From Microcoleus sp. FACHB-DQ6 (GTDB taxonomy: Bacteria; Cyanobacteriota; Cyanobacteriia; Cyanobacteriales; Microcoleaceae): 50,641 nucleotides of DNA. Below are positions 8,633 through 26,775 of this stretch, one piece after another. A program made the translations under genes and the position numbers. Each line of letters starts with the position of its first letter. Position 1 is the first letter of the stretch. Where the stretch lies: positions 1-50,641 of the forward strand of contig JACJNV010000374.1 of the NCBI GenBank assembly GCA_014695175.1, given 5' to 3'. The notes under the pieces were generated by a model. The model saw only the letters and a program-made list of their open reading frames with translations. It searched no databases and had not been told where the DNA came from.

Positions 8633-8783
8633 AAACTTCGATAATTTAGCCAAATCACAGGCAGTAATGTCACAGGAGCGATCGACTTGTAAGGTGCGTC
8701 TGACTTACGCTGTATACGAAACAATTAGGATTTGCCCCTGACGCACCCTACTATATATAGGTTGCAATTGCGTAACTTCTGAA

Positions 8784-9197
8784 CTAGAAAACCGCCATAA
8801 TAGTTAAGGCGACCAAGCAGCTTAACTGAATTACTAAGCTGAAGAACCGAAACTTCGGATCGAGGCCAGCAATGTGAATCACTGAATGTACAAGCCGAAA
8901 TAGGATGTACACAACAATCAGCAAATCTACTGCTGTTCCTGAAACACCCCTAACTGTTAGAAGAAAAACAACTCCCAAATACAAAGGGAGGTTTTCTATC
9001 AAGTTGGATTGTACTCGAAATAGTCGCCAAAGCAAGCTGTCGTCGTTCTGTGTGCCGAAATCTTTTACTGATCCGCCCGCAGATAGATGTCGAATTCTGA
9101 CTGCTAGTAACAAGATAACGACTGCGATCGTCCACAAAATGAAAATTGTTAAACCCCAGAGGGGGAAAGTCATATTTGTCGGTTCAATTTGCATCAT
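8784..9197 (-). CDS. MAPEG family membrane protein
   Basis: A 137-residue integral membrane protein with about four helices (WGLTIFILWTIAVVILLLAV at the N terminus). It carries the MAPEG signature RVQSNLIENLPLYLGVVFLL in the second helix region. Family members are glutathione-dependent oxidoreductases or eicosanoid-type enzymes in eukaryotes; the bacterial substrates are mostly unknown. The start has AAGGTAG about 6 nt upstream. A short inverted repeat (GGTGCGTC at 8693 and GACGCACC at 8740) fills the gap to the upstream-lying beta-lactamase gene. Confidence 0.85.
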   Translation of the reverse strand: MMQIEPTNMTFPLWGLTIFILWTIAVVILLLAVRIRHLSAGGSVKDFGTQNDDSLLWRLFRVQSNLIENLPLYLGVVFLLTVRGVSGTAVDLLIVVYILFRLVHSVIHIAGLDPKFRFFSLVIQLSCLVALTIMAVF

Positions 9198-9311
9198 CTT
9201 TCTACCTTGCGAAACTGCGGCTAAGACTTTAGAAAAGTTAGCTCAAATCCGTTAGCATCGTTCTGGTCAAATCTCACCCACAGTCAACAATCACCGACGA
9301 TGCAACCGGAA

Positions 9312-17120: not shown

Positions 17121-18950
17121 GTGATTAACGCCTAACGGCATCAAAGGTTATTTCAGCCTTTACCTCTCCCGGCGAGGGGTTTATTGTGGGTGTTGTGATC
17201 AACGCCTAACGGCATCAAAGGTTATTTCAGAACCAAGCTGCAACTATCAGCAATTGATGATAGGTGATCAACGCCTAACGGCATCAAAGGTTATTTCAGA
17301 AACCATGTTTAACACGCGCAAAGTAACCATAAAGCCGTGATCAACGCCTAACGGCATCAAAGGTTATTTCAGGGTTGCTTCCTCGCCGGAGAAACCAAAG
17401 GGATGAAGTGATCAACGCCTAACGGCATCAAAGGTTATTTCAGTACAGTGCGTAACTTACTTGAATCGAACTTTCGGCGCAGTGATCAACGCCTAACGGC
17501 ATCAAAGGTTATTTCAGTTGGGGTTTGCTGAACCAGAATCGGCTTATGGACAGTGATCAACGCCTAACGGCATCAAAGGTTATTTCAGCCCAGGTTTTTG
17601 TCCTTCTTCACCCCAAGTTTCAACGTGATCAACGCCTAACGGCATCAAAGGTTATTTCAGCTACTAAAACGCTTCTTAATTTGTTCATTACTGGGTGATC
17701 AACGCCTAACGGCATCAAAGGTTATTTCAGAGCACTGGAAGATTTAGGGGTGCAATATGGCTAGTGATCAACGCCTAACGGCATCAAAGGTTATTTCAGC
17801 ACCTGTAACGAACCGAGTTGCTTGAATTACTTGCAAGTGATCAACGCCTAACGGCATCAAAGGTTATTTCAGGAGGTGAAAGCGATATGAAAATGCACGA
17901 TGAAGACGTGATCAACGCCTAACGGCATCAAAGGTTATTTCAGAACCCCGGTTGCTGGCTCTACGCCGCGAGATTGAAGTGATCAACGCCTAACGGCATC
18001 AAAGGTTATTTCAGGACTGTATTTTCGCCAACAAAAACCAATCCTTTTGGGTGATCAACGCCTAACGGCATTAAAGGTTATTTCAGAATTAGGTGCAACG
18101 AACCTATCCAGGCACAGGATTAGTGATCAACGCCTAACGGCATCAAAGGTTATTTCAGCCTCTGCCTTGCTGACCAATAATTGCGGTAATACCGTGATCA
18201 ACGCCTAACGGCATCCAAGGTTATTTCAGATACGTCACAGTTCGCGGGATAAAGTACGCTTGGAAGTGATCAACGCCTAACGGCATCCAAGGTTATTTCA
18301 GGATCTCAGCCGCTCGCACTTCCAACGGTTGTGATTCGTGATCAACGCCTAACGGCATCCAAGGTTATTTCAGCACTACAACCAGGAAACAAAAACCATG
18401 ATTAACTTGTGATCAACGCCTAACGGCATCCAAGGTTATTTCAGATTAACTGCTGCTGGACTTCAGCGGGAGTCAAATAGTGATCAACGCCTAACGGCAT
18501 CAAAGGTTATTTCAGGATTGTGCGACTTCATGTATAAAAGTCTTAGCACCGTGATCAACGCCTAACGGCATCAAAGGTTATTTCAGAAATTCAGTCCTGC
18601 CGTCGTTGTGATGCAATTCAATGATGTGATCAACGCCTAACGGCATCAAAGGTTATTTCAGGTTTCACCAGGTTTGATTTCTTCGAGTTGGGTTTTGTGA
18701 TCAACGCCTAACGGCATCAAAGGTTATTTCAGCTTTGTTCTAAAGCCCACAGGTTCGCTTCTTGAATCGAGTGATCAACGCCTAACGGCATCAAAGGTTA
18801 TTTCAGACCTGACATCGGGCCGGTGACGAGACTGACTCCAGTCGTGATCAACGCCTAACGGCATCAAAGGTTATTTCAGTTCTGTGCAGTGTTGCCTGTA
18901 ATCTCAGCCTGAGAGTGATCAACGCCTAACGGCATCAAAGGTTATTTCAG
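17121..18950 (-). CRISPR. CRISPR array A: 26 repeats of 36 bp, 25 spacers
   Basis: The 36-bp repeat on the plus strand begins GTGATCAACGCC, has the core GCCTAACGGC and ends AAAGGTTATTTCAG. Spacers are 33-39 bp. R1 (17121) has GTGATT for GTGATC. R14 (18051) has ATTAAAGG. R16-R19 (18194, 18266, 18338, 18409) have ATCCAAGG for ATCAAAGG. The proposed transcription is on the minus strand, as for the cas genes. There the hairpin GCC-GTTA-GGC is followed by an 8-nt end TTGATCAC, which would be the crRNA 5' handle. The mutated R1 would be the old, leader-distal end. The plus-strand direction cannot be fully excluded. Confidence 0.95.
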
Positions 18951-19059
18951 ACCGATCGCCCAACCCATTAAAGAATAAACCCTCCAAACCATTTTTGCAA
19001 GCACCTGGCCCGACTAAATCCTTAAAACCTCCTTCCAACATCAAAGCAGTTCGATCGCA
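18951..19059 (-). promoter_or_regulatory. Leader-like flank of array A (copy 1)
   Basis: A 109-bp non-repeat stretch sits where a spacer would be. Bases 18952-19021 are about 83% identical, nearly without gaps, to 19243-19312 beside array B (shared CCGATCGCC and CATTTTTGCAAGCACCT). The same flank touching the same side of two arrays is what a CRISPR leader does. Bases 19022-19059 are unique and probably come from the trailing end of array B. Confidence 0.55.
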
Positions 19060-19241
19060 GTGATCAACGCCTAACGGCATCAAAGGTTATTAGTAGTGTA
19101 TATAAGGTGTTGCAGCGACTGCGGGAAGAAGTGTGATCAACGCCTAACGGCATCAAAGGTTATTAGTAGAATACCAGCTTTTCATTCAAAAACTGCCCCC
19201 ACTAGTGATCAACGCCTAACGGCATCAAAGGTTATTAGTAG
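19060..19241 (-). CRISPR. CRISPR array B: 3 repeats of 37 bp, 2 spacers
   Basis: Repeats at 19060-19096, 19133-19169 and 19205-19241 match the array A repeat over the first 32 bases but end TTATTAGTAG instead of TTATTTCAG. Spacers are 36 and 35 bp. All three share the variant end, so they form a separate lineage. It lies between leader copy 1 and leader copy 2, directly downstream of cas5. Confidence 0.9.
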
Positions 19242-19313
19242 GCCGATCGCCTAACCCCTTCCACAATAGACCCTCCCAGCCATTTTTGCAAGCACCTTGC
19301 CACACTAAATCCA
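19242..19313 (-). promoter_or_regulatory. Leader-like flank of array B (copy 2)
   Basis: 72 bp between the cas5 stop codon and array B, homologous to 18951-19021. The homology ends almost exactly at the cas5 stop. On the minus strand an ATG overlaps the cas5 stop (TAATG) and opens a 29-codon frame that ends inside the first repeat. Copy 1 keeps the same frame (GACKNG and GLGDR conserved), so a short peptide is possible but unproven. Confidence 0.5.
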
Positions 19314-19958
19314 TTACTCAGGCCCGATGGAACTCCAGCAATCAACCCCAGCCAACACATCAGCCAGCAAAAAATCCCCAGCATCAGCCAAAACATAGCG
19401 CCGCCACCTAGTCTTTTTAGAACCCGCATGATCCACCCAGCAAGGCAAAGCCAAATACCCATTTCGATCTAAAATCAACCACTGACAAATATCAGCTTCA
19501 AATTCATCCCGCCACAGCAAAACAGAATTAATTAAATCCCGACTTTCCCCCAGCGAAACCCCACCAAATCTACTCACCGACTCCGGGCGCAAAATTGCCT
19601 CCCGCAATCTTTCCCACAGCTTGGGATTGCCAACATCCCCGCCAAAATCCACCCAAATTCCCAAATCAATACCAGTCAGCAACACCTGAAAATCCGGCCG
19701 CGCATTGCCCGCCGCAAACTCCTCCTTCGCAACTTTCACCCGCCGAACAGTCCGCAGCAAAGTAGAACTTTTGGGAGCAGACAAAAGGGCGATCGCAATC
19801 TTACAGCCACAGTGAGAATAGCGGTTAATTTCCCCCACCATTGACAGCAGCATTCCGTACACCGTAGCCGGCGGCGGCACCGGATAACTTTCCGCATATT
19901 CCCGCGCATAAGACTGCCGCCAACAAGCAATTGGCACTTCAATTCGCAACCCGATCAT
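19314..19958 (-). CDS. cas5: CRISPR-associated Cas5 (DevS/Cmx5-like)
   Basis: A 214-residue Cas5-type RAMP protein. The N terminus has the RAMP beta-strand and the family pattern SYPVPPPATVYGMLLSMVGE. RRVKVAKEEFAAGNARPDFQ and an RFGGVSLGESRDLI stretch (glycine-rich turn) follow. It should bind the 5' handle of the crRNA in the Cascade complex. The ATG overlaps the cas7 stop (ATGA), so it is coupled. It is last in the operon, and its stop directly touches the array leader. Confidence 0.88.
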   Translation of the reverse strand: MIGLRIEVPIACWRQSYAREYAESYPVPPPATVYGMLLSMVGEINRYSHCGCKIAIALLSAPKSSTLLRTVRRVKVAKEEFAAGNARPDFQVLLTGIDLGIWVDFGGDVGNPKLWERLREAILRPESVSRFGGVSLGESRDLINSVLLWRDEFEADICQWLILDRNGYLALPCWVDHAGSKKTRWRRYVLADAGDFLLADVLAGVDCWSSIGPE

Positions 19959-20902
19959 GCAGCCTCCCGATCGATATCCGACAAAATCACAGACTGCAAA
20001 TCCCTCACCGCCGGCTTAATTCCCCGAAAAACTTTCACACCCAATTGCTCCAATTCTTCCACCTCCGGTTCCACAGAAATTGCACCGCCAATCCACACCT
20101 CATTCGGGTCAATATCTCCAGCCTCAATGCGGCGCACCAAATCCGATATTGAAATCTCCCCTTTGCGATTTTCCTCAAAGCAGTAAAGAATCCGGGGAGC
20201 AAAATCGTGAGTCCACCTGAGCACGATACTTTCAGGAGAAAAATCGTAAAGAAACCGAGCGTGATTTCCCGCAACACCTCCGAGAGAAGCCAAAGCATCC
20301 AAAACAGAAATCACCCGATTCGCAACCTTCAAACGGTGCGGAGTCATCGCAAAACCGTACTGATAGCGAGTAGCGTGAGCCTCGGTTTGATGAATAGATT
20401 TCCGGTCTTTTTTGCCGCTAGTCGAGCCAAAAAACAAATCGCCAGTATCCGCAGTCAAAGAAATCGCGCGAGTCACTTCTAGCACCCCCCTGCGAGCAAT
20501 GCTTTCCCCTTTTTTCAGCTTAGCTTTAGCCTTGCCGCCTTTAGCAGTTGGTTTGGTGTCGCTCGACTCTGGAACCCCATCATTATTAATATCTTCCGTT
20601 GCCGCTTTCGCATCCATGTAACCCAAAACATCATCATCAATGTAGATTTCAGGATCGAAAACACCTTCTTGAACGCGATAATTTTCATTTTTATCATCAT
20701 CCCATTTGCGGTTGACATCTTCTCCTAAAAACTGCCACTGATAGCGAATTGCCCACCGAATAGCCTCAGCAGATACAGTAGTCCGCAGCGAATTTTTCCA
20801 TGCTAAGCGCTGCAAAGTTGTGACGTTACCTTGGTTTTCACCCCGGTTGTTAGCAGCGATGCCGTAATTGGTCAAAATGTTGCCAAACAAATGATAAGTC
20901 AT
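19955..20902 (-). CDS. cas7: CRISPR-associated Cas7 (DevR-type)
   Basis: A 315-residue Cas7/DevR family protein. The N terminus LFGNILTNYGIAANNRGENQ with TTVSAEAIRWAIRYQWQFLG is characteristic of the DevR 'autoregulator' family. A charged, lysine- and aspartate-rich insert (about residues 105-140) is followed by RRGVLEVTRAISLTADTGDLFFG. Several copies would form the crRNA-binding backbone of Cascade. The name autoregulator comes from Myxococcus, where DevR lowers dev operon expression. That fits the guide-like element upstream of cas6 here. Confidence 0.92.
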   Translation of the reverse strand: MTYHLFGNILTNYGIAANNRGENQGNVTTLQRLAWKNSLRTTVSAEAIRWAIRYQWQFLGEDVNRKWDDDKNENYRVQEGVFDPEIYIDDDVLGYMDAKAATEDINNDGVPESSDTKPTAKGGKAKAKLKKGESIARRGVLEVTRAISLTADTGDLFFGSTSGKKDRKSIHQTEAHATRYQYGFAMTPHRLKVANRVISVLDALASLGGVAGNHARFLYDFSPESIVLRWTHDFAPRILYCFEENRKGEISISDLVRRIEAGDIDPNEVWIGGAISVEPEVEELEQLGVKVFRGIKPAVRDLQSVILSDIDREAA

Positions 20903-20945: not shown

Positions 20946-22628
20946 CTAACGTAAATTGCGAAGGGATGATGGCAAAGGCACGCTTTCACCATCATCATCA
21001 TCTTCGTCATCTTCTTCTTCCTCATCCCCATCATCCTCATCTAAATCAACATCAGAATCTTCAGCCTCCACCCGAGTGCTGCTTGGCAATTCAGGCGGCA
21101 AGTCAGCAGATTTCCTGCCTTTGTAACTGACGAGGGAAAGCAAGACTAAATTTCTTGCCATTTCCCAATCATCTAATACTAAATTCCACAATTCTGCTTG
21201 ATATTCTTGCTGCACTCGCGAAAAGCCCGCTTTCGACCAAAATTCCGTGATGAAAGAACAGAATGCTGAAAAGTTTTTGCAGCGAATCATTTTCGAGCGC
21301 ACTTTTTCCCGCTCATCTGATATCCGCTTTTCACCTAAATTTTTCCCGTGTTCTTCGCTAGCATTTTGGCGCTTTGCTTCAGCATTTCCTTGCTTGAAAG
21401 AACCAGCGTAAATTCCTCTCAAAGCATCGTGACAAGCCTCAACAAACCGCCCGTGGGATGCTTCTTTCCACTCCGCATATTCTACCATATCTCGAAATCC
21501 TTTACTTTCATAACACAGTCGATCGAACAATTCTTTGCTAGTTATTTTCGCCGCCAATTCTCCGTACCAAGGAAGGTGTTTAATCAAAGCATCAGCGATT
21601 AAACCTTTAGCCAAGCTGGGGACAATGGCACTGCCCGAATCTCCGTAAACTACATACTTATCCTTGAAAGCATTTTGCGCTTTCTGATAAGCGGCACAGA
21701 TTTTTGCATCCGCAGTTACGGAATACTTGTCCGTCGGAGATTTTTGCTTTTGATTCCACGGCGTTTTCCCAAAAATCACAGCGCGACAGCGGCTAACTTT
21801 GTAAGTTTTCGCAATCTCTACTGCGGATTCGTAAGTCACTAAAAAACGCAGCGCTGCATCTCCAATCCCGGAAGCATGAAAATTTTTGTACGCTTGATGG
21901 CGTTTGGCGTAACTCATTCTAGTTTCAGCAAACTGTTTGAGATTCAAGATTTCAGGAATTATCAAAGCGGCAGATGCTTTTTCTCCTTTTGCGAACGATC
22001 GAATTTTGAAATAACAGCAAACTACGGGCGCGAAAAGCAACACTAAAGCATCTAAAGCGTTTTGTTCGATGCTAGTTTTGCCTGCGAAAGCAGTGTGTTT
22101 GACTGTAGCGCCCGGATTCAGCCAGCCCGCTACTGCCAATGGTTTCTCTAGCAGGAAACCCGCGCGATCGCACAAATTTTTAGCAAACTTTTGATGGCTG
22201 TATTCAGTTAGCGACTTGTAACTTACTACTAGCGGCAACTCGCCCTCATCAATCTCAAAAGATTGAGATTTTATGCCGTCGCTTTTAGAAAGTATCCCTT
22301 GCTGCAAAAAAGTATTCAACAATCCTTGATGCAGCGCCACTCTCGACTCCGGCAGGAGATTTTCCGAATCGATTCCCCGGAATCCAATCAATCCGTCATT
22401 CAGCAAAAACGACTGTTGAATCAACCATTCGAGCGCCTCTAAATGACTCCCGTGAATATTCAGCGCGACTTCATATTCGCCAAGCTCCCATTTCAGTTTA
22501 TCATAACTAATTCCATCCCGATTAAATTGCTTTAAGGTCATCCACAAACCAGCCAAACCCGCCGCGTGCATATCCGTATAATGCGGGCTGTGCAAGTTAA
22601 GAACAATTTCAACATTTGTACTGTTCAC
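20946..22628 (-). CDS. cas8: CRISPR-associated Cas8 (Cmx8/Csx13-like large subunit)
   Basis: A 560-residue protein. Its N terminus (VLNLHSPHYTDMHAAGLAGLW) and its place between cas3 and cas7 match the MYXAN-type large subunit Cmx8. The large subunit reads the PAM and holds the displaced DNA strand. The last about 45 residues include a run of about 25 mostly Asp/Glu residues (DLDEDDGDEEEEDDEDDDDG) before VPLPSSLRNLR. Such an acidic tail is not a standard part of the family. The start overlaps the cas3 end by 20 bp. The family call rests on context and the short N-terminal pattern. Confidence 0.82.
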   Translation of the reverse strand: MNSTNVEIVLNLHSPHYTDMHAAGLAGLWMTLKQFNRDGISYDKLKWELGEYEVALNIHGSHLEALEWLIQQSFLLNDGLIGFRGIDSENLLPESRVALHQGLLNTFLQQGILSKSDGIKSQSFEIDEGELPLVVSYKSLTEYSHQKFAKNLCDRAGFLLEKPLAVAGWLNPGATVKHTAFAGKTSIEQNALDALVLLFAPVVCCYFKIRSFAKGEKASAALIIPEILNLKQFAETRMSYAKRHQAYKNFHASGIGDAALRFLVTYESAVEIAKTYKVSRCRAVIFGKTPWNQKQKSPTDKYSVTADAKICAAYQKAQNAFKDKYVVYGDSGSAIVPSLAKGLIADALIKHLPWYGELAAKITSKELFDRLCYESKGFRDMVEYAEWKEASHGRFVEACHDALRGIYAGSFKQGNAEAKRQNASEEHGKNLGEKRISDEREKVRSKMIRCKNFSAFCSFITEFWSKAGFSRVQQEYQAELWNLVLDDWEMARNLVLLSLVSYKGRKSADLPPELPSSTRVEAEDSDVDLDEDDGDEEEEDDEDDDDGESVPLPSSLRNLR

Positions 22629-25083
22629 AAGCTCCCGTTACCTCACTGTAAATCACGGCATCTGTTGGGGCGATAGGATAAATTTTTTGAAATTTCTCCC
22701 TCCAGTTTTTTAGCTCAGAAATAGGACGGGGAAGCCGCACCGGAACCGCCCATTTTTGTGCTTCCTCAGCCAAAGCCTTATTTTTACTGATGCCTTTTTT
22801 TGCCCTTTTTTCTTTTGCAATTTTCTCAATATTTTGCTTGTCTTCTGCTAAAATGACATTAATGGTATTCCCAGGCTCTCGCAAAGATTCGCGACTGGTA
22901 CACCACAAGCCGTCAAGCCATGCAGAGTCATATTCGGCGATCGGTTCGCCGGTGATTTTGAGAGCCGCATTCATTAAATCAGTCTGCGAAATTTCCCCCA
23001 ATTCCGCAAGTTCTCGAACGAACTCTTGACCAGCTTTTACCTGTTCTCCTGTATAAGGATAAGGAGTGTTAGTCGGATAAAATATAGCTTGGCAAATTCG
23101 TCCCGATGCTAGTACCAAATTGCCAGTAGCATCAAACTCAACTTGCCTGTTAAGCCGCCCCAGCCGCTGAATCAGCGCCGCAAAAATTGCAAATGGCGTT
23201 ATCAGCAAATCGGCACTCAAATCGAGGGACATTTCGCAGATTTGATTGGTAACAGCCAGCACACCTTTAGTTTGCTGCCCAAAAGCTGACATGACTTGAG
23301 AATGGCGATCGACCCGATCTTTGTACCGATATCGAGCGTGGTAAACTAAAGGCAAAAAATCTAAATTCGGGTACTTAACTAACTCATTTACCGCAAAATT
23401 GTAAGTGTCAACGCAACTTTTTACAGAATTGTTGACCCACAAAACCTTTTGATTTGCTCCTAAAGCAGCCGCGACATCCACCATGACATCGGTGGAACTT
23501 TCAACTACTTGAAATTGATAGCGCGGCAAATCCTCCAAATCTTTCGGGCCTTCAATCTCGGTCATCTCTTCGCCCAACTCCGCCACGGTAGCGTAGATTT
23601 TAGCCAATTGTTCCTGAGTGAAACTAGCGCTCATCAGCAAAATCGGCGCGCCTTTAAACGTCTGGATAAATCTCAGCAAAGCGCTAAACAATTTGTCATC
23701 GTAAGCGTGAACTTCATCAAAAACAAAAGCACCTTGGGCGATCGCAATCCACGCATAAATCGGCTTGCGGTTGTTCTGCATCAATCCCAAAACTGAATCT
23801 ACCGTGCCAACGATGAGTTTGGCAATCCAAGCTTTGAAACTTTGCAGTCTCGACTCATTTTCAACGTGGTCGTCATTTTCATTAATCAAAGCTTGGTAAA
23901 CCTCTAAATCGATGTTCGATCGAGAGTGCATTAAAGCTGTTTCAGCTTCAGTCAAAGTGCCGTAATCCAAAAAGCCCTGAGTAGCCGTCCCAGTAGTAGG
24001 ATAAAGTACAAAGAGCTTTCTATTAATTGCCCAATTTAATCCCCACAAATAAGCAGCAATTGTTTTACCAGTTCCGCAACCAGCTTTAACTAAAGTAATT
24101 CTACTTTTGGTCGCAGCAACAGACTTTTGAAAACCCCGCGGCTGCTTTTTATTGAGCCGGGAATCGATAACCTGCTGTAAATCTTCCCGGCTCAATACTT
24201 GCTCCAAAACTTGCCTCAACCATTGCCGCTGATTTGCCATTTGGGGCACCGCAGAACCTGCGATATCCGCTGCAATGACAGTCGCTTTCACTGCGGCAAT
24301 GAACCGCTGGCGATCGCTATTTCGCCCCACAGTTTTTGCCATTGCTTCGCATTCGTCCGTTACTGCCTCAACAGCATATTTTAGTTCCTCCTGCGTCCAA
24401 TTTGATTTTTTGACATTGGGTAGTTGTGGCGGCAATTTTAACTGGCTGCCAGTCCCAATTTTGAGCAGCGCCCTAAAATCATCTCGGACGGGTTTTGAAT
24501 CTGGTTTAGAAGGAATTTTGTGCTGGCAAAATACATAAAGCGGGGCATTGCCGCAGCCCTTAGTTTTGACAAATTCCTTTGTTGGATCGACTTTGAGATG
24601 GTGTCCGATCGCCCCCCAAACAGCCACCAACAAATCGACATTTTCGCAACTTTCCAGCCACTGCCTAAATTCGGGAACTCGCAGCACCAAAATGCCGCTC
24701 AAAATTTCGTGACGGATTATTTGTTGGACTTGATTTCTCTCGTTAGTTGGCAATTCTGATTTAATCGTTTGTAACCACTGAGGATGCTTTTGATAATGCA
24801 CTGACTCGGTTGCCATCAATCCCAAAAAGTGCTGGTTGGCTTTCCCCCAATCGTGAATGTAACATCCCATCAAAGTTGTTTTCAACAGCAATTGCGCCCA
24901 TTCATCGCCCAAACCTAATTGACGCAAGATAATCGGCAGCAATCGGTTGAGAATGATTTCAGCAGAACAGTACACCGCAGCAGTATGTCCGGGCAAAAAG
25001 TGAGCTGACTGAATTTCTTTAGGCAGCCTTAAAAAATCCTTGGGCAAAGACTTAGCAAAAAGTCGGGGAAAATTCACTTTCAT
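22609..25083 (-). CDS. cas3: CRISPR-associated nuclease-helicase Cas3
   Basis: An 824-residue fused HD nuclease and superfamily 2 helicase. HD part: FLPGHTAAVY (His33), CYIHDWGKANQHF (His77-Asp78), IRHEILSG and GAIGHHLKV. Helicase: VKAGCGTGKTIAAY (motif I), AFVFDEVHAYD (DEVH, motif II), LLMSASFT (motif III), NQICEMSLDLSADLLIT (motif V) and ALIQRLGRLNR (motif VI). It degrades target DNA after Cascade binding. All catalytic motifs look intact, so the system should be able to interfere and is not a transposon-linked, cas3-less type. The start overlaps the cas6 stop (ATGA). Confidence 0.95.
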   Translation of the reverse strand: MKVNFPRLFAKSLPKDFLRLPKEIQSAHFLPGHTAAVYCSAEIILNRLLPIILRQLGLGDEWAQLLLKTTLMGCYIHDWGKANQHFLGLMATESVHYQKHPQWLQTIKSELPTNERNQVQQIIRHEILSGILVLRVPEFRQWLESCENVDLLVAVWGAIGHHLKVDPTKEFVKTKGCGNAPLYVFCQHKIPSKPDSKPVRDDFRALLKIGTGSQLKLPPQLPNVKKSNWTQEELKYAVEAVTDECEAMAKTVGRNSDRQRFIAAVKATVIAADIAGSAVPQMANQRQWLRQVLEQVLSREDLQQVIDSRLNKKQPRGFQKSVAATKSRITLVKAGCGTGKTIAAYLWGLNWAINRKLFVLYPTTGTATQGFLDYGTLTEAETALMHSRSNIDLEVYQALINENDDHVENESRLQSFKAWIAKLIVGTVDSVLGLMQNNRKPIYAWIAIAQGAFVFDEVHAYDDKLFSALLRFIQTFKGAPILLMSASFTQEQLAKIYATVAELGEEMTEIEGPKDLEDLPRYQFQVVESSTDVMVDVAAALGANQKVLWVNNSVKSCVDTYNFAVNELVKYPNLDFLPLVYHARYRYKDRVDRHSQVMSAFGQQTKGVLAVTNQICEMSLDLSADLLITPFAIFAALIQRLGRLNRQVEFDATGNLVLASGRICQAIFYPTNTPYPYTGEQVKAGQEFVRELAELGEISQTDLMNAALKITGEPIAEYDSAWLDGLWCTSRESLREPGNTINVILAEDKQNIEKIAKEKRAKKGISKNKALAEEAQKWAVPVRLPRPISELKNWREKFQKIYPIAPTDAVIYSEVTGACEQYKC

Positions 25084-25721
25084 TTAGCCTCCCAGTGAGG
25101 CACAAAAAAGCCACCTCCCATGTGTCCTTTGCCGCCAATACCGTTATGCTGCACCAACAAAGAATCTTCATCAGTAAGCCCGGATATTTTCACCGAATAA
25201 CCTACTTTTGTATCGCCCTTAACTTTGATAGTTTTTCTGGCGATTTCGCCGTATTGATTGAGGGGAATTTCAGCATTGCCCGATCGCACTCCCAGCGCTT
25301 TCAGTTGCCGATTCACCGCCGCTAAAAAATAATCCTGCTTTTCATAGCCAGTAATCACCACAATCCGAGCAAACAAGTCAGCAGCAGGCTTTAACGGCAA
25401 TATTGTCGGCACTCCCAGCACGATTTGGTGGATGCCCACAGACAGTTGCCGGCCACCGAGTTTAAAGAAATGGTGCGCGTTTTCTGTTGCCACCCTGATC
25501 CGCATTCGCGACGATCGCCCGATCTCGCGCTTGAGAGTAATTTTCCCCTGTCTGTCTGGATATCCCGCCACCGTCAGCAGCCGAATTGTGCGATCGGCCC
25601 GCAACATCGGCACTACTTCGCAAATCGCTGCAAACAGCCCGTAACCGTGGTCTGCTGGGAGTTCTAAGCCATTTACTCTGAAAGAAATGTCTGTCGAACT
25701 TGTTACTCGGAGTGCAGACAT
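25080..25721 (-). CDS. cas6: CRISPR-associated Cas6 (Cmx6-like) endoribonuclease
   Basis: A 213-residue protein from ATG 25721 (an in-frame GTG lies at 25748; neither has a strong ribosome site). The N-terminal FRVNGLELPADHGYGLFAAI matches Cmx6. The C-terminal IGGKGHMGGGFFVPHW is the glycine-rich loop of Cas6 enzymes. A conserved histidine near residue 24 (ADHGYG) is a candidate catalytic residue. It processes the array transcript at the repeat hairpin. It is the first gene of the five-gene operon cas6-cas3-cas8-cas7-cas5. Its first codons match the pseudo-guide encoded just upstream. Confidence 0.9.
   Translation of the reverse strand: MSALRVTSSTDISFRVNGLELPADHGYGLFAAICEVVPMLRADRTIRLLTVAGYPDRQGKITLKREIGRSSRMRIRVATENAHHFFKLGGRQLSVGIHQIVLGVPTILPLKPAADLFARIVVITGYEKQDYFLAAVNRQLKALGVRSGNAEIPLNQYGEIARKTIKVKGDTKVGYSVKISGLTDEDSLLVQHNGIGGKGHMGGGFFVPHWEAK
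25700..25721 (-). promoter_or_regulatory. Proposed Cascade binding site at the cas6 start codon
   Basis: On the minus strand the cas6 ATG (25721-25719) is followed by TCTGCACTCCGAGTA (25718-25704). The pseudo-spacer upstream begins TCTGCCCTCCGAGTA, identical except at position 6. Type I Cascades do not pair every sixth guide base, so pairing would be continuous to base 15. ATG stands where a 5' PAM would be. Pairing stops after base 15 (positions 16 and 17 differ), which would favour binding without cleavage. Confidence 0.6.
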
Positions 25722-25764
25722 TTGATTTTTGAGAGAGGTAGTATTCACTAGCCTGCTCGGGAAT

Positions 25765-25792
25765 AATTTAGTTAATCGCCTGACGGCATCAA
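25765..25792 (-). promoter_or_regulatory. Possible second promoter for cas6, inside pseudo-repeat 2
   Basis: TTGATG (25792-25787), a 16-bp spacer and TAAATT (25770-25765) on the minus strand form a weak sigma70-like promoter. Transcription would start near 25758, about 40 bp before the proposed Cascade site, where a bound complex would block it. Confidence 0.3.
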
Positions 25793-25890
25793 AGGTTTTG
25801 GGGAGTTGAAAGCAATGGCTGTTCGCGTCCCTGCATTAATCGCGTAGGTTTTACTACTCGGAGGGCAGAGTGATCAACGCCCCGTCTAAT
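25769..25890 (-). ncRNA. Mini-CRISPR / CreR-like pseudo-crRNA gene upstream of cas6
   Basis: Read on the minus strand, a 12-nt remnant GGCGTTGATCAC (25881-25870) is identical to the 3' end of the array repeat and keeps the 8-nt handle TTGATCAC. A 65-nt spacer-like stretch (25869-25805) follows. Then comes a pseudo-repeat (25804-25769) whose 21-nt core AACCTTTGATGCCGTCAGGCG differs from the array repeat at one base and keeps the GCC/GGC hairpin. The first 15 nt of the spacer match the cas6 start region except at position 6. The promoter at 25897-25925 would start the RNA about 8 nt before the handle. The spacer is longer than the array spacers (33-39 nt). An array relic is the main alternative. 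Confidence 0.6.
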
Positions 25891-25896
25891 TTTCTA

Positions 25897-25925
25897 GGTA
25901 TAGCAATTACCGCAACTTTTGTCAA
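25897..25925 (-). promoter_or_regulatory. Promoter of the pseudo-crRNA and cas operon
   Basis: TTGACA (25925-25920), exactly 17 bp, then TATACC (25902-25897) on the minus strand is a near-consensus sigma70 promoter. The predicted start is near 25890. No better promoter was seen between rph and cas6. The rest of 25926-26061 holds a GGGGCGG dispersed repeat and a TTCCGGTTG...CCGGAA hairpin. Confidence 0.6.
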
Positions 25926-26061
25926 GTCTAATGTAAATAAATCTGTAGGGGCGGCTTTCACCAAAAATATTTCCGGTTGCCATAAAGACCGGAAAACCCG
26001 TCCCCACCCAACGGTAAATTCAAACAGACATCTCCAACAATTGGGGTTAAAATCAATCGGT

Positions 26062-26775
26062 CTAAAGAGCTTGTCGCTGAGCATCCAACAATTCCTGAAT
26101 CCCAGTTTCTGCGACATCCAAAATTTGATTTAACTGACTCCGGCTGAAACTTCCCTCTTCCGCAGTTCCCTGAATTTCGATGATGTTCAAATCTCCATTC
26201 ATTACCACATTACAATCAATTTCAGCCGCTACATCTTCAAGATAATTCAAATCTAAAAACGGCTCGCCCTCCAAAAGTCCCACAGACACGGCCGCCACTT
26301 GACGAATAATGGGCGATCGCACTAAATCACCTTTTTGCACCAACTTGTTCAAAGCATCAGCCACAGCCACAAACCCGCCAGTAATTGAAGTGGTGCGAGT
26401 CCCAGCGTCCGCTTGCAAAACATCGGCATCGACAAGTATTGTGCGTTCCCCCAATAGTTGCATATCCAAGCACGATCGCAAACTGCGCCCAATCAACCGC
26501 TGAATCTCTTGAGTCCGTCCCGATAATTTCATAAATTCCCGCTCTTGTCGCTGCGGTGTCGAGCCCGGCAACATTCGGTATTCCGCTGTTAGCCAACCTT
26601 GTCCGGTATTCTCTAGAAATCTAGGCACTCCCGGCTTGATTGTAACGCTGCAAAGTACCTGAGTATCGCCACTTTTCGCGAGTACGGAACCGCTAGCAAA
26701 TTTAGTAAACTGTCGATCGAAACTAATCGGACGAATTTGATTTGGTTGTCTGCCGTCTGGACGCTGGAAAGACAT
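26062..26775 (-). CDS. rph: Ribonuclease PH
   Basis: A 237-residue protein of full RNase PH length. It carries [13 protein letters not shown] at the N terminus, [17 protein letters not shown], the phosphate-binding and active-site region [20 protein letters not shown], the arginine-rich [14 protein letters not shown], and [17 protein letters not shown]. It trims the 3' ends of tRNA precursors using phosphate and forms a hexamer. The downstream neighbour on the same strand is the cas operon, after a 340-bp gap with its own promoter, so the two are probably not one unit. Confidence 0.95.

Follow-up and report, generated by a model that had tools for sequence, protein, structure and literature searches.

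What is a fragment resembling part of a clustered regularly interspaced short palindromic repeats (CRISPR) array doing in the leader of a cas operon? The question is raised by a stretch of DNA of 50,641 nucleotides (nt) from Microcoleus sp. FACHB-DQ6 (assembly GCA_014695175.1, contig JACJNV010000374.1, positions 1 to 50,641 of the forward strand), referred to here as the window, in which a repeat remnant, a pseudo-spacer and a second pseudo-repeat lie between a promoter and cas6, the first gene of an operon of type I-B, MYXAN branch. The explanation favoured here, and judged quite likely from sequence comparisons, is that the leader encodes a CreR-like guide RNA by which the defence machinery lowers its own production. 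CreR RNAs resemble CRISPR RNAs (crRNAs), belong to type I and V-A systems, and act as repressors of the cas promoter in competition with crRNAs, the repression being relieved by crRNAs or anti-CRISPRs; they are reported for types I-B, I-E and V-A (Liu et al. 2023, as cited in PMC12737573, PMC13131331 and PMC12948488). Autorepression of the CreR type is already known in itself, and the guide described here appears to work like CreR in a variant form.

All parts of the unit listed in a preliminary description of this DNA (promoter, 12-nt handle remnant, 65-nt pseudo-spacer and hairpin-bearing pseudo-repeat) could be located, on the minus strand. The leader promoter consists of a -35 element TTGACA (25920..25925), retained in three further leaders of the genus (L002, L003 and L004), and, at a spacing of 17 nt, a -10 element TATACC (25897..25902); it scores 12.3 on a rough promoter scale. 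The -10 element ends 15 nt upstream of pseudo-repeat 1 (25870..25881), GGCGTTGATCAC, whose 12 nt include the 8-nt handle and are identical to the 3' end of the repeats in the array; the hairpin is gone and only the handle end is left. The pseudo-spacer (25805..25869) is about 30 nt longer than the array spacers, and its first 15 nt (25855..25869) form the guide seed. In pseudo-repeat 2 (about 25769..25804) the Cas6 hairpin GATGCCGTCAGGCG (25790-25777) is kept and the handle is lost. The leader holds, as CreR does, a crRNA-like unit of handle, spacer and second pseudo-repeat outside the array. An Rfam search of 25600-26100 returned no match above threshold, the hairpin of pseudo-repeat 2 giving a sub-threshold match to CRISPR-DR33 (18.2 bits, the gathering score being 39), and the folding of the complete leader is unremarkable (z -1.65). 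A mini-open reading frame in the pseudo-spacer was considered and rejected, since by eye relatives do not keep it.

The guide TCTGCcCTCCGAGTA matches the target TCTGCaCTCCGAGTA in the first codons of cas6 (25718-25704, that is 25704..25718 on the minus strand) at 14 of 15 positions, the sole mismatch being position 6, just as had been noticed initially. The target directly follows the cas6 start codon ATG (25719..25721, minus strand), which stands in the place of a protospacer-adjacent motif (PAM). The ATG-flanked pattern ATGTCTGCNCTCCGNG has one exact site in the organism's own genome and two sites with one mismatch; this near-uniqueness, and the recurrence of the same geometry with other sequences in other species, argue that the match is not due to chance. 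An in-frame GTG at 25748 is an alternative start for cas6, but it is absent from L003, so the ATG is taken as the conserved start.

The same leader occurs in the three further genomes of the genus mentioned above, and it had been predicted that handle, hairpin and seed would co-vary there with the cas6 start. In the alignment all three persist (the final base of the handle is T in L003), and the seed co-varies with cas6 at two positions. Among the four congeneric leaders, guide and target are identical in 4/4 at positions 1-14, leaving aside 6 and 12; position 6 is unpaired in all four and position 12 in one. Paired changes of guide and target are seen at position 2 in L003 and at position 5 in L004, and as each swaps an amino acid of cas6 (Ser to Phe and Ala to Val), the co-varying seed changes do not represent synonymous drift.

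These relatives also bear on the view that the unit is only a relic, a decayed and functionless mini-array upstream of cas6 whose match to the gene is a fossil self-targeting spacer. In genome G003, the source of L004, guide and target are kept though no other cas gene is present in 18 kb and no array was seen, so the change at position 5 may predate or postdate the loss of the operon. At L009, too, the 1.1 kb between cas6 and the contig end contain no cas3, the spot of the handle is occupied by GAGCA repeats and no guide was found. Against decay stand the compensated seed change in L003, where the operon is entire (genome G006), the retention of the pair in 18/18 operons resembling that of the window, and the adherence of different guide sequences in other species to the same rule, so that the relic view is considered very improbable. 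The cas6 of G003 (L104, about 8684-9202) is cut off and continues into a piece resembling the neighbouring gene, which we take to be RNase PH-like.

The recurrence of the unit was surveyed in 92 cyanobacterial cas6 loci, a first set that excluded the majority of partial or weak matches and a number of full ones but kept the partial L004, and in a second draw from a class-level search that gave 24 new loci among 30 (matches without a locus left out; upstream DNA short in L127, 158 nt, and L142, 46 nt). A strict rule demanded an 8-mer resembling the handle, agreement of guide and target at positions 1-5 and 7-11, and an ATG before the target; pairs sharing identical upstream triplets were removed from its count. 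It was satisfied by 24/92 loci of the first set, on one strand and within 700 nt, and by 6/24 of the second, and by none in 40 dinucleotide-shuffled sets of each; applied to both strands and 1000 nt of the first set it found 26/92 loci, with none in 20 shuffled sets. A tighter handle combined with at most one mismatch found 29/92 and 13/24 loci, again with none in 20 shuffled sets each. A relaxed same-strand search of the first set produced 19 rows, of which 8 were kept by eye (L007, L012, L041, L050, L059, L068, L072 and one of two rows of L081) and 11 taken as chance; the tighter-handle rule recovers seven of the eight, the exception being L059 with two mismatches, and misses L048, L057 and L069, which the strict rule finds. 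In the second draw the one-mismatch rows kept (L126, one of two rows of L131, L134, L136, L146, L147 and L152) are the same seven found by the tighter-handle rule. A relaxed search of both strands in 18 pair-less loci added a pair in L066 only. The pair search also listed rows within arrays (L041, L076), without a handle (L069) and between copies (L057, L077).

In total 46 pairs were accepted: 13 in the second set and 33 in the first, of which 32 satisfied at least one of the rules and L059 was judged by eye. Their distribution over the first set follows the operon type, the groups being defined by our own cut-offs on tblastn identities, chosen after the data had been seen: pairs are present in 18/18 window-like operons (all through the rules except L059, which was judged by eye), in 14/27 loci of a second cas6-cas3 branch and in 1/6 unclassified loci, whereas none was found in the 25 loci with cas8 rather than cas3 after cas6 or in the 16 loci of a fourth operon group. 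The coupling of guide and target appears to be selected, and it is wider than first claimed.

The survey is informative about how the target would be read. No PAM was demanded for the 36 handle-led matches, and ATG precedes 26 of them (AAC 4, TAA 3, CAA 2, CCG 1); by this preference a putative PAM adjoins the target, as in CreR. The recognition of ATG by cyanobacterial type I-B effectors of CRISPR-associated transposons (CAST) had been mentioned in the preliminary description, and this agrees with PMC12719977, which gives 5'-ATG for PmcCAST and 5'-AT for AvCAST.

Over the 46 pairs, several of which come from close relatives and are therefore counted more than once, the number of matches is 46, 45, 46, 45 and 45 at positions 1-5, 8 at position 6, and 46, 45, 39, 45 and 43 at positions 7-11; it is 19 at position 12, then 37, 37, 35, 30 and 25, 9 at position 18, and 6 to 20 thereafter, with positions 1-5 and 7-11 (in the relaxed search also 13-14) selected for by the search and only 6, 12 and 15 onward free of selection. 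Pairing thus dips at 6, 12 and 18, which bears out the initial remark that every sixth guide base is left unpaired; a periodicity of 6 nt is typical of type I effectors. The guide of the window and the cas6 mRNA have the same sense, and targets on the opposite strand obey the same rule at five loci (L066, L139, L143, L144 and L145). The latter indicate that DNA is read, as Cascade on DNA would explain both orientations and antisense pairing cannot. Control by a leader RNA that pairs with the cas6 mRNA would account for a matching sequence by the start codon; however, being of the same sense, the two cannot pair in the window, and a Cas7 filament is indicated by the lack of pairing at 6, 12 and 18. 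Antisense control, already contradicted by orientation, is the least probable of the alternatives considered. The sequence data support guide-target coupling, a PAM preference, a seed pattern and recognition at the level of DNA.

The position of the target relative to cas6 differs between loci. It lies directly after the start codon in L077/L083 and in L001-L004, which make up the window clade, and after an in-frame ATG within the first codons of cas6 in L006/L051 and L057; L057 and L077 have a second target farther upstream. Among the pairs of the first set with the target away from the cas6 start, 23 were tested (L066, the 24th, stood outside the test), and in 20 of these the target is at most 70 nt from the -10 element of whichever promoter-like site scores best in the interval from guide to cas6, against 10.1 expected from random placement and with none of 5000 draws reaching the observed number. 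In six (L005, L041, L048, L054, L059 and L064) the target begins 20-23 nt past the start of the -10 element, where random placement gives 0.27. Internal promoter-like sites score 5.0-9.7 in the nine loci with a start-codon or in-frame-ATG target and 8.4-14.6 in the others. The earlier idea that the leader carries its own guide against the cas6 start is supported by the co-variation, the ATG and the dips at 6, 12 and 18; among the other pairs examined, however, most have their target close to a predicted promoter and not at a start codon.

Several points weigh against the favoured explanation. CreR is complementary to the cognate cas promoter, whereas the target in the window, at the start codon of cas6, is some 180 nt downstream of the promoter, which is an unusual place for CreR. 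The score ranges of the internal promoter-like sites overlap owing to the 9.7 of the window, whose site begins inside pseudo-repeat 2 (L002, L003 and L004 score 8.2, 6.1 and 5.0). In 3 of the 23 tested pairs (L071, L072 and L081) a long distance separates the target from the top-scoring promoter-like site, 13 of the 27 second-branch loci lack a pair, and to these are added the persistence of guide and target in G003 and the selected positions and repeated relatives of the 46-pair profile. Since complementarity to the promoter is lacking in the window and is predicted in relatives, the leader guide is best filed as a CreR-like variant and not as a plain member.

The architecture also recalls addiction modules of the CreTA type, in which the guide would repress a toxin and not the cas genes. 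In CreTA the Cas5-binding handle is conserved in pseudo-repeat 1 and lost from pseudo-repeat 2, whose remainder is the better preserved (Cheng et al. 2022, PMC9458426), and the two pseudo-repeats of the window have decayed in the same way; in one relative, L081, moreover, homologues of hicB and hicA separate the target from cas6. The CreA RNA, however, is described there as repressing toxin RNA, and haloarchaeal repeats as being without a conserved hairpin (PMC9458426), whereas the guide of the window has a target that belongs to the cas operon, and its hairpin is kept. The target consists of the first codons of cas6 and not of a toxin-gene promoter, the stretch from guide to cas6 contains no promoter-like site beyond a weak one, and no mini-open reading frame is kept there, the single one of the pseudo-spacer not being retained in relatives. 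An addiction module is accordingly thought to be extremely improbable.

Other genes are found upstream of cas6 at further loci. The L081 homologues of HicB and HicA, both above the Pfam cut-off, lie at -424 and -168 from the cas6 match. A small open reading frame of about 70-100 amino acids, with a variable C-terminal motif like NNYIVLHKGRNSW, lies between target and cas6 in L007, L011, L012, L068, L071 and L072; the four proteins scanned (L007, L011, L012 and L071) gave no Pfam family above the cut-off. In L008, L010, L013, L017 and L018 a gene ends just before cas6, its product presumably a WYL-type regulator as judged by eye; several such loci have no guide, and L014 seemingly has both gene and guide.

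Two further elements are hairpins. The distance from the start of the guide to the hairpin of pseudo-repeat 2 was measured in 15 of the 18 window-like loci: 14 have 75-90 nt, and L007 has 52. It is about 50 in the array, and 11 loci of the second branch gave 33-58. The extra stretch in the window-like guide RNA is a covarying hairpin in most members, located between guide and pseudo-repeat 2, often with a loop like TTANCAT. In an alignment of 12 sequences, 85.5% of the stem cells are paired and 8/12 pairs show two-sided changes, while slid stems pair in 36-58% of cells; four measures are equalled by 2 to 4 of 500 shuffles, and a fifth, which counts further pair types, lies within the shuffles (146/500). 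A model of this hairpin gave 19 matches in 84 sources (451,420 bases): one at each guide of the 12 training loci, the untrained L134 and L136, L107 (coinciding with L006) and L110 (coinciding with L051, in G115), while L006, L107 and L110 each contribute a second, weaker one. The hairpin begins 37-39 nt past the guide start in 10/14 loci (32-44 overall), just beyond spacer length; the loci are L041, L048, L052, L054, L055, L057, L059, L064, L076, L077, L083, L006, L134 and L136. Of the 18 window-like loci, L001, L002, L003, L005 and L007 have no model match. In the window itself, the corresponding insert 3' of the spacer-length guide part (25801..25831, minus strand) does not match the model, designated R1, and has only a weak stem GGGA..TCCC, as is the case throughout the window clade.

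A repeat-like hairpin motif is also present at -130 to -20 of the Cas6 match in 11/18 window-like and 5/27 second-branch loci, in 0/24 and 0/16 of other groups, in 3/23 of the other draw and in 3/6 unclassified loci, with a shuffle expectation of at most 0.05 per set at two mismatches. In the window clade this hairpin is pseudo-repeat 2, while six window-like lineages (L005, L006/L051, L041, L048, L052 and L055) have by eye a third repeat-like hairpin, additional to pseudo-repeat 2, 28-50 nt upstream of the cas6 start. Cas6 may therefore act on its own mRNA through the leader hairpin. Were this the whole of the control, with Cas6 binding or cutting the hairpin so as to limit cas6 translation and the seed match being secondary, the hairpins in 11/18 window-like loci and the additional ones would be accounted for; the co-variation of the seed, the ATG and the opposite-strand targets would be left unexplained, and purely post-transcriptional control is considered very improbable. 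Such control is compatible with the favoured CreR-like guide, and the two can act together.

The operon behind the leader has the complete type I-B MYXAN gene set, all by profile match above the cut-off (TIGR02807, TIGR01587, TIGR03485/03486, TIGR02585 and TIGR02586) and all on the minus strand: cas6 (TIGR02807, cmx6; 25080..25721), cas3 with HD and helicase parts (22609..25083), cas8 (csx13/cmx1, type I-MYXAN; 20946..22628), cas7 (Cst2/DevR; 19955..20902) and cas5 (cmx5/DevS; 19314..19958). The operon lacks cas1; the sole Cas1 match of the genome, which is 98% complete, is on another contig (G000:C190:10251-11108). The array (17121..19240, minus strand) comprises 29 repeats of consensus CTGAAATAACCTTTGATGCCGTTAGGCGTTGATCAC, the three nearest cas5 starting TACTAATAACC, with spacers of 33-39 nt as deduced from the repeat spacings; compared with a phage collection for a direct reading of the PAM, the spacers gave no match. 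Beside the array start lies a 73-nt element (19240-19312) of which an 84% copy is found within the array (18949-19021), as if the end of a leader had been duplicated.

Put together, these data suggest the following course of events. The leader promoter would transcribe guide and cas operon jointly; Cas6 would cut at pseudo-repeat 2, and Cascade would take the guide RNA by its handle, its 5' end being expected at or near GTTGATCAC or GTTGAGCAC and its 3' end at pseudo-repeat 2. The complex would then read the cas6 start codon as an ATG PAM and pair over a short seed of about 13 nt with every sixth base idle, which by analogy with CreA and CreR is probably enough for binding and too little for cleavage by Cas3. 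Bound there, it may halt RNA polymerase ahead of cas6-cas3-cas8-cas7-cas5. As guide and operon are under one promoter and the block would lie behind the guide, we read this arrangement as sparing guide synthesis, such that the guide could still be made with the cas genes off. As in CreR, the block would presumably lift once crRNAs from the array fill Cascade, or when Cascade is lost or inhibited. It had been proposed instead that Cascade represses when crRNA complexes are in excess; the published logic of CreR runs the other way, an excess of crRNA relieving repression because crRNAs compete with CreR (PMC12737573).

Compared with known systems, the leader shares with CreR a putative crRNA-like RNA of partial complementarity, and differs from it in belonging to a cyanobacterial MYXAN-branch I-B system, in having as target the cas6 start codon, in PAM position and past a shared promoter, and, for most window-like members, in the extra hairpin of the guide RNA. 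With the Tn7-like I-B CAST systems (PMC12719977) it shares an I-B effector with a probable ATG-type PAM; the window operon carries cas3. A broader reading can be offered tentatively, and is rather doubtful: the leader RNA might be autoregulatory in two layers, combining a guide upstream of its own roadblock, with a start-codon PAM, with a Cas6 site in the mRNA leader, the insert hairpin as a mark and an extension to the dev operon of Myxococcus xanthus. Lying upstream of the roadblock, the guide would escape the repression it causes; as the hairpin ending the guide would also be a Cas6 site in the cas6 mRNA leader, the level of Cas6 would be sensed too; and the insert hairpin would set the guide RNA apart from immune crRNAs.

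crRNA-like elements and mini-arrays, in the form of standalone repeats by cas genes with spacers partly matching cas promoters, are reported to have been described by Shmakov and colleagues in 2023. The start-codon form seen in the window would indicate how a guide can reside in the very transcript that it controls. If the favoured explanation is true, RNA-guided autorepression would be a common wiring of cyanobacterial MYXAN-branch CRISPR, and the guide-target pairs would be dozens of natural experiments on type I-B binding without cutting, from which its requirements could be read: an ATG and pairing over positions 1-5 and 7-11, with 6, 12 and 18 left idle. The dev operon of Myxococcus xanthus (DevT, DevR, DevS) belongs to the same branch and is autoregulated, and the same guide principle could explain this. 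The profile TIGR01875 is titled 'DevR family CRISPR-associated autoregulator', and whether the autoregulation of the DevR family, seemingly the source of that name, acts through a leader guide RNA would become testable.
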